DNA of 64,000 bases from positions 62,001 to 126,000 of the forward strand of contig NZ_RYZR01000006.1 of assembly GCF_003977615.1 (NCBI RefSeq), in the 5' to 3' direction. This DNA is from Dyella dinghuensis (GTDB lineage Bacteria; Pseudomonadota; Gammaproteobacteria; Xanthomonadales; Rhodanobacteraceae). Each line of letters begins with the position of its first letter. Positions within the stretch are counted from its first letter, which is position 1. Made by a program: the position numbers and the translations under genes. Below are positions 42,901 to 46,394 of this stretch, piece after piece. The notes under the pieces were generated by a model. That model ran no database searches. It was given only the letters and a program-made list of their open reading frames with translations, and was not told the origin of the DNA.

Positions 42901-42968
42901 GCGGACGATTTGTCGTCCGCTGCCTGTCCGGACACTGTCCGGCGGCCGATGTCCGGTGTCCGCGGACA
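42901..42968. promoter_or_regulatory. Cluster of GTCCG palindromes, putative enhancer
   Basis: Three perfect inverted repeats in 68 bases: GCGGACGA/TCGTCCGC with a 4-base spacer (42901-42920), TGTCCGGACA (42925-42934) and TGTCCGCGGACA (42957-42968), plus extra TGTCCGG half sites at 42936-42942 and 42950-42956. The cluster lies 70 to 135 bases before a sigma-54 promoter, the usual distance for sites of a NtrC-type activator. It could also serve the divergent lipoprotein gene. Confidence 0.7.
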
Positions 42969-43035
42969 ACCTGAGTGCCGGTCAGCCTCATCCATTAATA
43001 CATATCTATCAATGACTTGATGAGCATCTCCGCAC

Positions 43036-43051
43036 TGGCACGCGGATTGCA
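43036..43051 (+). promoter_or_regulatory. Sigma-54 promoter (-24/-12)
   Basis: TGGCACG (43036-43042), four bases, TTGCA (43047-43051): an exact match to the sigma-54 consensus TGGCACG-N4-TTGCA. The transcript would start near 43062, about 38 bases before the first small gene. Confidence 0.85.
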
Positions 43052-43099
43052 CCGTAAAAGGCGAGACCTCTTCCCGGTCCATCACTCGGAGATACGGAT

Positions 43100-43279
43100 A
43101 TGAAACTGACCGACAGCAAATTCAAATTGGAAACGGCACTTCTGAACGGCCTGTTCGTCGTGTGCATGGTGATTTGCGGACTGTTCCTGGCATCGATGGT
43201 CACGATTAAACCCGCACCGGTCCAATTGGCATCCAATGCTCACACCAGCGCCACGGTGACACACGCGCCGTCAGCGTGA
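43100..43279 (+). CDS. Small single-span membrane protein, first of a tandem pair
   Basis: A 59-residue open frame with GGAG 8 bases before the ATG. N-terminus MKLTDSKFKLET, one membrane helix at about 14-34 (LLNGLFVVCMVICGLFLASMV) and a short polar tail after KPAPVQLAS. Two Cys (22, 26) lie inside the helix. I do not recognise the family. It is very like the next gene, including the DNA around the start codon, so the two arose by duplication. It is the first gene after the sigma-54 promoter. Confidence 0.75.
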   Translation: MKLTDSKFKLETALLNGLFVVCMVICGLFLASMVTIKPAPVQLASNAHTSATVTHAPSA

Positions 43280-43310
43280 GTACTGACTCATTCATTCGGA
43301 GATTAGGGAT

Positions 43311-43541
43311 ATGAAACTCACCGAAACCAGGTTTGAAAACTTCATTCTGCATACGCTGTTCGTGGCATGCATGGTGGTCTGCGGCCTGATTCTCACGGCG
43401 ATGGTGGCAAGCAAGCCCGCACCGGTGGAACTGGCCACGAAGATGACGCTCAGCAACCCCGTCAGCACGCTGCTGGCCTCGGCACCCTCGGCCTGCATGC
43501 TGCCGGTCAGCAACACGATTTGTCTGCGCACGGCGGGTTGA
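43311..43541 (+). CDS. Small single-span membrane protein, second of a tandem pair
   Basis: A 76-residue paralogue of the preceding protein: [11 protein letters not shown], helix at about 12-33 ([19 protein letters not shown]), then KPAPVELAT and a longer tail holding two more Cys (62 and 71). Cys 20 and 24 match the helix Cys of its partner. GGAG with the same GGATATGAAACT context leads the start at 43311. It is 31 bases after the first gene, with no promoter between, so both likely depend on the sigma-54 promoter. Function unknown. Confidence 0.75.
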
Positions 43542-43581: not shown

Positions 43582-44052
43582 ATGCTACATGTCATCCTGT
43601 TTCGCCCCGAAATTCCGCCCAACACCGGCAACGTGATCCGACTGTGCGCCAACACCGGCGCCGGACTTCACCTGATCCGCCCCTTGGGCTTTGAGCTTGA
43701 CGATACACGTCTGCGACGCGCCGGCCTGGATTACCACGAATACGCGCGCGTCGCGGTACATGACGATCTCGATACCTGCCTTGCGGCGTTGAATCATCCG
43801 CGCGTCTTCGCCTTCTCCACGCGCGGCCGCACCATGCATGCCGACGCACGCTTCGCCGATGGCGATGCGCTGCTGTTCGGTTGCGAAACGGCGGGCCTGC
43901 CCGACGCGGTGCTCCAGGGATTGCCGCCGGAGCAGCGTTTGCGACTGCCGATGTGCGCGGACAGCCGCAGTCTCAACCTGTCCAACAGCGTGGCGGTGGC
44001 GGTGTATGAAGCATGGCGTCAGCTTGGATTCCCGGGTGCCGTGGCGCTCTGA
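43582..44052 (+). CDS. trmL: tRNA (cytidine/uridine-34-2'-O)-methyltransferase
   Basis: A 156-residue SPOUT methyltransferase that modifies the wobble base of tRNA-Leu. Typical features: [22 protein letters not shown] at the start, [20 protein letters not shown] and the knot segment [17 protein letters not shown] at the end. Length is as in E. coli TrmL (157). The ribosome binding site is weak. Confidence 0.92.
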
Positions 44053-44100
44053 TCGCGACGATCACGACAGGCGCAAGGCCCGGGCGGCTACAATCCGGGT

Positions 44101-44751
44101 ATGAATGCCGCCTCTTCTACGTCATTGCTCCCGCAGCCCTTGCGCAAATTGGCAGGCCGCGCGCTGGAAACTGCGCTCAATCACGCCCTGTCACTCGATC
44201 CGGATACCCAGTCCAAACTGGCCGCCCTGAATGGGCGCTCGGTGCAATTGCATCTGCGTGGCGCGGATCTGGCGCTGGCGATCACCGTTGCGGATAGTCG
44301 ACTGAAAGTCGGCCCCGCGCCGGAAACCAGCGATCTGCGCGTGGCGGCAACGCCCGGCAGTCTGCTGTCGATGATCTTCCGCCGCCACGGCGACAGCATG
44401 GCGCCGGGCAAGGTGGAAATTGCGGGTGACGCCGATCTCGCCCGCCGCCTGGAAAAACTGGCGAGCGGTTTCGCGCCCGATTTTGAAGAAGCCTTCGCAC
44501 GCACCTTCGGCGACGTGATTGGCGTGCCGCTGGCCAAAGCCGTGCGCGAAGGATTGGCGCACGCGCGCGAAACCTCCTCGCATCTCACGCAGGATGGCGC
44601 CGCATGGTTGCGCGACGAGGCACGCATCGCGCTCGCGCCCGGCGAAGTGGAAGGCTTCCTCGATGAAGTCGACGCACTGCGCGAACGCACCGAGCGTCTG
44701 GATGCGCGACTGGCCCGCCTGGAGCGCGCACGCAAAGGATCGACTCCGTGA
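44101..44751 (+). CDS. ubiJ: Ubiquinone biosynthesis accessory factor UbiJ
   Basis: A 216-residue SCP2-type protein that binds ubiquinone precursors in the cytosolic Ubi complex. The SCP2 region covers about 15-115; the C-terminus is a basic coiled-coil-like helix ([21 protein letters not shown]). It overlaps ubiB by 4 bases (GTGA), the usual order ubiJ-ubiB; ubiE is not adjacent here. Confidence 0.88.
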
Positions 44752-46394
44752 CGCCGCTGCGAGCTGTGCCGGGACTGCTACGCATTGCCGTGGTGCTGTT
44801 GCGCTATCGGCTGGATGAAGTCGTCGATGCGACGCATCTCTTTCGTCCGCTGAAACTCGTTCGTCCATTTCTGGGCCGGCCCATCGTTGACGTGCGCCCA
44901 CTTTCCCGCGGTGCGCGACTGCGCATGGCGCTGAACGAACTGGGCCCGATCTTCGTCAAGGCCGGCCAGGTGCTGTCCACACGGCGCGATCTGGTGCCGG
45001 AGGACATCGCCGATGAACTGGCGCTTCTGCAGGATCAGGTGCCGCCGTTTCCGGGTGAGCAAGCGCGCGAGATCGTACAGCGCGAGCTGAAACAGCCGAT
45101 CGAGCAGCTTTATGCGAGCTTCGATAACGTTCCGCTGGCGTCGGCTTCGATCGCGCAGGTGCATGCGGCCACGCTTTATGACGGCCGCGCCGTCGTCGTA
45201 AAAGTGCTGCGCCCGCGCATCGACGAACGCATCGACCGCGATGTTCGGCTGATTCGTTCGCTCGGCGAACTGGCACAACGCTGGCACCCCAATGCGGACA
45301 AGATTCGCCCGCTCGATGTGGTCAGCGAAGTGGAGAAAATGCTCGAGCACGAGCTGGATCTGCAGCGCGAAGGTGCGAATGCCAGTCTGCTACGCCGCAA
45401 CTTCATAAGCGGCGTCGACATGTACGTGCCGGAAGTGCACTGGGAACTGACCGCCGCGCGCGTGCTCACACTGGAGCGCGTGTCTGGTGTGAGTTGCGAT
45501 GACATCGCTGCCATCGACGCAGCAGGAATCGATCGCAAGGTGCTCGCCGCCAAGGGTGTGCGTCTGTTCTACGAACAGGTGTTCCGCGACAACTTTTTCC
45601 ATGCCGATGCGCACCCGGGCAACATCTGGGTCGATCCGACGCGCGTGAGCGAGCCGCGCTTCATCGCGCTGGATTTCGGCATCATGGGTTCGTTGCCGGA
45701 AGCCGATCAATATTGGCTCGCGCAGAATTTCATCGCGCTGTTCGAACGCGACTACGCACGCATTGCCAAGCTGCACATCGATGCGGGCTGGATGCCGCCG
45801 AGCGTTCGCCTCGACGAACTGGAAGCAGCAGTACGCACCGTTTGCGAACCTTATTTCACGCGTCCGCTCTCGCAGATCTCGCTCGCCGAACTGGTTGTGA
45901 AACTATTTCAGACCGCACGCCGATTCGAGCTCACCTTGCAGCCGCAACTGATTCTGCTGCAGAAGACGCTACTCAATATCGAAGGTGTGGGTCGCATGCT
46001 CGACCCGGACATCGATATCTGGGCGGTGGCGCATCCCGTGCTTAAACGCATTTTGCGCGAGCGCTACAGCCCGCTGCGTACCTTTCGCGAAATTCGCAAG
46101 CGCGTGCCGGAATGGTTCCACAATGCGCCGTTATTGCCGGAATTGGTACGCGATGCGTTGCGGCAAGTCGCTATCGGCGAGCAACGTCTTCTTGCCGACG
46201 CGGAAGAATTGGGTCACCAACGTCATCTCGTGCGCCGGATACTCGGCATGATCGGTGGCGGCTTGCTCGGTGCCACGCTGATCATGAGCGCTACGCTGAT
46301 GTTTACGTTCGGAACGCAGCACAGCATCTGGGTACCGATTGGCGTCGGCACAGCGGGCTTGCTCTCGTTTGCGTGGGGCTGGTGGCACCGATGA
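44748..46394 (+). CDS. ubiB: Ubiquinone biosynthesis kinase-like protein UbiB
   Basis: A 548-residue atypical kinase/ATPase of the ABC1 family needed for ubiquinone synthesis. The KxGQ motif is at 71-74 ([14 protein letters not shown]), followed by [16 protein letters not shown], and the catalytic-loop-like [13 protein letters not shown] with LDFGIMG. Two membrane helices close the C-terminus. The start is GTG at 44748, coupled to ubiJ. Confidence 0.93.

Follow-up and report, generated by a model that had tools for sequence, protein, structure and literature searches.

A candidate sigma-54 regulon of one-helix membrane proteins and an ABC-transporter/two-component operon in Dyella dinghuensis and related genomes

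Many small membrane proteins lack a known function or regulator. AcrZ and KdpF are one-helix proteins that act through the helix on a transporter or kinase. MacB transporters are defined by an ATPase fused to the permease, and the definition of Bce-type modules includes an OmpR-type response regulator. In Bce-type modules (BceRS-BceAB; Ysa/TCS-G; VraDEH), as described in passages of PMC7438565, the kinase depends on a co-encoded ABC transporter for sensing, and VraH, the small membrane protein of such a module, is needed for high-level resistance. MgrB is a small protein that acts on a kinase through its helix and is itself a member of the regulon that it brakes (PMC8404706, in part). The PEP-CTERM (PrsK-PrsR) regulon is made of scattered short units with a shared activator site and a sigma-54 element, attributed to an NtrC-type two-component regulator (passages of PMC1569441). 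Sigma-54 has also been linked to FtsX-like permeases by promoter prediction, in what the available part of PMC12316311 calls the first evidence. Here, we report on a locus of Dyella dinghuensis that is predicted to be one output of a sigma-54 regulon whose controlling two-component system is encoded on another contig, C8; taken as a whole, the comparisons below make it probable that this system runs the regulon and that the small proteins serve as membrane accessories of an envelope-stress module.

The window, the whole stretch of DNA that was analyzed, is 64 kb long. The features of the locus are as follows.

42901..42920, no strand assigned: upstream palindrome 1, GCGGACGA-TTTG-TCGTCCGC, with perfect 8+8 arms
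42925..42934, no strand assigned: putative activator site TGTCCGGACA, a decamer common to all three peptide promoters of the genome
42936..42955, + strand: two extra TGTCCG half-sites starting at 42936 and 42950, from the sequence
42957..42968, no strand assigned: main putative activator site TGTCCGCGGACA, 67 bases 5′ of the -24 element
43007..43019, + strand: IHF-like site TATCAATGACTTG, from the sequence, between the palindrome and -24
43036..43051, + strand: sigma-54 -24/-12 element TGGCACG-CGGA-TTGCA, from sequence match and promoter comparison
43100..43279, + strand: one-helix membrane protein of 59 amino acids, from ORF and alignment, with a hydropathy peak of 2.7
43311..43541, + strand: one-helix membrane protein of 76 amino acids with a two-cysteine tail, from ORF, alignment, and AlphaFold2 model

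The elements that the original prediction had read from the letters are all present. The exact -24/-12 element at 43036-43051, with GG at -24 and GC at -12 at fixed spacing, is the sole exact match in the window; the three perfect palindromes start 135, 111, and 79 bases from the -24 element; and the two duplicated ORFs, 54% identical, are each preceded by a CGGAGAT stretch as ribosome binding site. The site at 43007-43019 is called IHF-like by comparison with WATCAANNNNTTR, which we take to be the IHF consensus. Palindrome 1 shows no consensus at the corresponding place in the promoters collected.

Exact TGGCACG-N4-TTGCA occurs five times in the 4.2-Mb genome. With up to two mismatches, 16 elements were observed in the window versus 17.9 expected, and with up to one mismatch, 73 were counted in the genome versus 63 in the reversed control. 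Since the mismatched element is thus near chance, it convinces only together with the upstream sites; the element by itself was given up as evidence, and the argument was moved to the combined pattern. The decamer TGTCCGGACA alone was likewise dropped as a regulon marker: it occurs at seven places in the genome versus four in the reversed control, and at the four remaining places, the 100 bases downstream contain no strong sigma-54 element (one place has a fair element at 249 bases).

The combined pattern, GTCCGCGGACA-N56-86-TGGCA-N6-TTGC, has four matches in the genome and none when reversed. Three of these matches lie at peptide loci, and the remaining one lies at an operon of about 18 kb. 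Three of 30 sampled strong sigma-54-like sites in the genome have at least two half-sites within 140 bases upstream, and these are the window locus, the peptide locus on contig C1, and the operon on C8; the third peptide locus (C8:345632) lies outside the 30-site sample, its element score of 14.0 being below the threshold of 14.4. Across the window's family, 113 of 147 genomes have the combined pattern, and none of the 147 has its reverse. Counted by genome, the strict pattern is present in 83 of the 85 peptide-bearing genomes (missing from G041 and G099) and in 30 of the 62 peptide-free ones.

Loss of the promoter motif or the palindromes upstream of orthologues would have counted against the original prediction, and both were retained. 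At all 30 best-match loci (a single locus from each genome, that of the window among them), the palindrome [CT]GTCCGCGGAC[AG] lies 66 to 69 bases 5′ of the -24 element, with two to six half-sites (median, five) within 140 bases; L075 and L084 were matched through the second gene of a pair, and the promoter counted there is the one ahead of the first gene. Among 21 further loci picked by hand, all 20 recognized lead genes carry the palindrome, 18 at 66 to 69 bases and 2 at 57; L142 and L154 have no recognized gene and stand outside this count, and two second-of-pair genes share the promoter of the first gene. The putative enhancer-binding-protein sites are thus kept in the orthologues.

Ratios of nonsynonymous to synonymous polymorphism (pN/pS) were calculated from ungapped comparisons in seven orthologue groups, in which the pairs are not independent. 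They range from 0.08 to 0.52 over the first 36 codons and from 0.14 to 0.61 over the full length. Judging by these ratios, the window ORFs evolve as protein-coding genes under purifying selection. A spurious promoter beside unexpressed ORFs, an explanation that could draw on the near-chance frequency of the -24/-12 element alone, is hardly credible when the reversed control gives 0 matches against 113 positive in 147 genomes, the palindrome-to-element spacing is fixed, and pN/pS is below 1 in seven of seven groups.

The two peptides belong to a family of 28- to 76-residue one-helix membrane proteins that occurs in soil bacteria related to Dyella. Two more paralogues are present in the genome, one of 51 to 53 residues on C1 and one of 28 residues on C8, and a family profile was built from these four members. 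A profile search of the window's family shows relatives in 85 of 147 genomes and 19 of 26 genera, with up to 10 matches per genome; at the threshold used, the peptides are absent from the other 62. At the order level, 62 of 299 genomes match, every one in the window's family, and the peptides are absent from the other families of the order sampled in those 299. Tandem pairs as in the window recur in other loci. The original prediction knew of no named family for the peptides, and none emerged: no match exceeded the cut-off in Pfam (28 members scanned; best E value, 0.017), NCBIfam (28 members; best E value, 0.047), or PHROGs (2 members; no match), and each weak family in Pfam and NCBIfam was matched by one member. 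A search for plasmid spread of the 76-residue peptide gave no match.

In a 28-member alignment, E, L, L, and F never vary, and one C and one M hardly do; these residues all fall within or beside one hydrophobic helix with the pattern FETxxLxxLFxACxxxC...AM. The AlphaFold2 model of the 76-residue protein has a single helix at residues 3 to 33 and a low-confidence tail. Tails vary, and many members of the alignment have a two-cysteine stretch like APSSCALPPDGVVCPR. Such tails, about 20 to 40 residues long after the helix, together with an adaptor/ABC operon that appears to be co-regulated, are what one would look for if the peptides were exported signals, pheromones, or small toxins, in which case a Sec-type helix would be cut off after ..VTA/KP.. 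and that ABC system would carry the released tail out of the cell. We consider this unlikely: the conserved part is the helix, and a tail-less version of exactly 28 residues, helix only, was found behind the same type of promoter at all 18 of the short Dyella loci fetched. All 18 genes have the palindrome 67 or 69 bases 5′ of the sigma-54 element; these places were fetched because their matches looked short, and a stricter gene-finding expression found 8 of the 18, a looser one all. The 28-residue version, the purifying selection, and the invariant helix residues together make the helix the unit of the family.

The fourth match of the combined pattern lies outside the window, at the operon on C8 (about 90 to 108 kb; L024 and L059). 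It encodes, in order, a HlyD-like adaptor, an ABC ATPase, ten FtsX/MacB permeases in five A/B pairs, an NtrC-type regulator, and a histidine kinase. By Pfam matches over curated cut-offs, the regulator has receiver, sigma-54 interaction, and Fis-type helix-turn-helix domains, as a two-component regulator of the NtrC type does. The operon promoter has a perfect sigma-54 element with TGTCCGCGGACA at 66 bases.

Seventeen regions around the regulator were fetched from relatives, nine from the window's own family and eight from three other families of the order, each stretch ending at the regulator. The order adaptor, ATPase, one to five A-B permease pairs, regulator is present in 15 of them, and it looks from these gene orders as though the permease pair is the unit that multiplies. 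The other two, L132 (G008) and L139 (G025), both of the window's own family, have the regulator with no operon genes in the stretch read, which at L139 stops at a contig end; regulator and transporter can therefore be separate. Sixteen operon promoters (those of the 15 regions, 8 of them from the three other families, plus the window genome's) all have a sigma-54-like element with at least one half-site nearby, and 14 have at least two; L162 and L165 have a single one. The palindrome-to-(-24) spacing in the operon promoters of 15 of 16 related loci from a collection of named records is 66 (12 loci) or 56 (3 loci); the sixteenth, with a remote adaptor of 21% identity, lacks the promoter layout.

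The prediction of a dedicated NtrC-type activator reading TGTCCG(CG)GACA gains support here, in that a candidate is encoded in an operon preceded by these very sites. All 17 regulator copies read share one recognition helix, LG[LM]SRQALYRR (L160 and L166 being identical in this part). Because the sites occur at its own operon, also in three other families, and the recognition helix is constant, the operon regulator is the candidate activator, and we infer that it binds the sites. Of the 147 family genomes, 139 have an orthologue at 65% identity or more, and outside the family the regulator is found in many further genomes of the order; it accompanies the peptides in 84 of 85 peptide-bearing genomes and is present in 55 of the 62 peptide-free ones.

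The exception among the peptide-bearing genomes, G023, has a peptide gene with CGTCCGCGGACG and a sigma-54 element (L137; G023:C1:2503500-2505500) and no regulator orthologue, the best-scoring match having 40% identity. No other result weighs as heavily against the view that one regulator alone governs all sites. It would fit another enhancer-binding protein (FleQ-, PilR-, or NtrC-like, or one on C11) as the activator, with the ABC operon merely a fellow target; the sigma-54 interaction domain is matched strongly at five places in the window genome, and PilR sites are TGTC-based in other genera. We regard such an arrangement as quite improbable, given that the sites go with the operon in other families that lack the peptides, that the 12- to 18-kb regions of the other four activators contain no cluster of three or more half-sites, and that the recognition helices of those four, read in one copy each, differ from that of the operon regulator.

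The candidate regulator falls short of two described classes, with 347.3 bits against a cut-off of 502.6 for PEP_resp_reg, so the PEP-CTERM/PrsR system was rejected as an assignment, and 255.3 bits against 443.55 for PspF of the phage-shock response. The regulon resembles that of PrsR in its scattered short units with a common activator site and sigma-54 element and differs from it in that no family match makes the peptides PEP-CTERM proteins.

The operon shares with Bce-type modules, as far as the passages on them go, ABC permeases co-encoded with a kinase in one module and the possibility of a small membrane protein such as VraH. Unlike those modules, it has an NtrC/sigma-54 regulator in place of an OmpR-type one, the regulator carrying sigma-54 interaction and Fis helix-turn-helix domains; an adaptor of the HlyD type; as many as five permease pairs; and small proteins encoded apart and in several copies. 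The likeness to VraH is one of description. With the MacAB-TolC efflux pump (PMC5985334, in part), the operon shares a HlyD-type adaptor and permeases with MacB periplasmic core and FtsX domains. It differs in that the ATPase is a separate protein, encoded by its own 240-amino-acid ORF and not fused to the permease, and in that the permeases come as A/B pairs. The main text of PMC12316311, on sigma-54 and FtsX-like permeases, lacks the words MacB, Xanthomonadales, Rhodanobacter, Lysobacter, and small membrane.

The kinase, seen adjoining the regulator in the window genome only, has HAMP and HATPase domains and hydrophobic stretches at about residues 5 to 31 and 50 to 79, approximately 18 residues apart. 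Judged from hydropathy, the outer loop of the kinase is short, and an FtsX-type ABC permease is encoded next to it, also seen in the window genome only. By analogy with Bce-type modules, such a layout would suit a kinase whose sensing depends on an ABC transporter. Of the two settings that the original prediction had suggested, envelope stress and surface growth, the neighboring transporter and kinase genes favor the first.

The mechanism that we propose is the following. Upon envelope stress, the phosphorylated regulator would bind TGTCCG(CG)GACA sites at a fixed distance upstream and drive sigma-54 transcription of its own operon, as feedback, and of several genes for one-helix proteins of 28 to 76 residues. 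These proteins would most likely sit in the inner membrane with the N terminus inside, and the helix itself would act as an accessory subunit or a brake of the transporter/kinase complex. Their most likely role, argued from the described systems, would be that of membrane accessories of an envelope-stress ABC/two-component module. Like MgrB, AcrZ, and KdpF, they would act as one helix on a kinase or transporter; unlike these, the Dyella peptides have no family match and several paralogues per genome. Four or five permease pairs are also found without peptides (L138, L160, and L166), and since permease pairs and regulator occur without them, the peptides cannot be indispensable to the transporter and would be optional modulators.

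The small proteins might instead act on the membrane itself, stabilizing it under stress as phage-shock small proteins do and needing no specific partner. The several copies per genome, the variable tails, a single helix with small residues suited to self-association, and sigma-54 control, under which the phage-shock response also stands, agree with this idea. The strong constraint on helix positions E, F, C, and M suggests a specific contact, and we think action on the membrane itself rather unlikely. Under the accessory role that we prefer, the strong variation of the tails is not predicted by a single binding role. A tentative extension is that bare transmembrane helices, as short as 28 residues, have multiplied and spread across the chromosome as plug-in modulators, each docking on one of the permease pairs, or on the kinase, of a single co-regulated ABC/two-component machine and tuning its sensing or export; this is possible, if doubtful. 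If it is true, sigma-54 would here govern an envelope-stress response of a previously undescribed kind that puts out mainly helices, not enzymes or pumps.

What the original prediction treated as a single unit is one site of a regulon with several loci. No component is of a novel kind in itself; within the reach of our searches, novelty lies with the peptide family, the site, and their combination. The literature searched (titles and abstract starts, with few subscription journals) yielded no description of the peptides, of a bacterial TGTCCGCGGACA site, or of the regulon, and among the matches listed, as judged by title or abstract start, no paper containing the site letters dealt with a regulon of bacteria. 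Such an operon goes unmentioned in passages of a paper on RpoN in Xanthomonas (PMC7280030). In a Luteibacter/fungus transcriptome (PMC9040847, in part), 5 of 15 efflux-pump genes, names not given, are upregulated, as is a two-component pair that clusters with a sugar epimerase and so is not the FtsX/MacB operon, as far as that text goes. A whole unannotated family would gain a coherent regulon, a specific candidate activator whose DNA code can be read, and a co-regulated transporter/kinase machine as its likely partner, and sigma-54 would be linked with an ABC/two-component module of the envelope that several families of one order possess. The regulon can be tested directly, as a single regulator deletion should silence all peptide copies at once.

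Among 105 distinct promoters selected for the palindrome, in which only spacing and blocks are informative, 65 lie before peptides, 30 before the operon adaptor gene, and 10 before something else. An IHF-like match between palindrome and -24 is present in 18 of the 65 peptide promoters and 2 of the 30 adaptor promoters, and a block AAATGGC...GCGG takes its place in 13 of the 65. Thirty loci returned for the combined pattern comprise 15 with peptides, 9 with the adaptor gene, 3 with FtsX-type permeases, and 3 (L093, L094, and L100) with another or no clear target.

Several minor observations concern these and neighboring sequences. Window positions 43582-46394, directly 3′ of the peptides, hold genes that we presume to be trmL-like, SCP2/UbiJ-like, and UbiB-like; a gene starting MLHVIL, 3′ of the peptides in the window, is also present in L084, L113, L114, and L115. 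A block like GAAATGGCTT....ATGCGG.TTTTCcA lies between palindrome and -24 in L003, L069, L070, L077, and L087. Blocks of the GAAATGGCTT type occur in standalone-peptide promoters, where they replace the IHF-like site, and are possibly a second regulator site. Further putative targets of the palindrome site are FtsX-type permease units (L090, L091, and L116) and, at L093, a 324-amino-acid secreted-looking protein. Two other exact sigma-54 elements of the genome, L031 (C9:18916) and L032 (C9:26223), which have no clustered TGTCCG sites, are of an ordinary sort and adjoin flagellar-looking genes, FliL-like and FliE-like as judged by eye.
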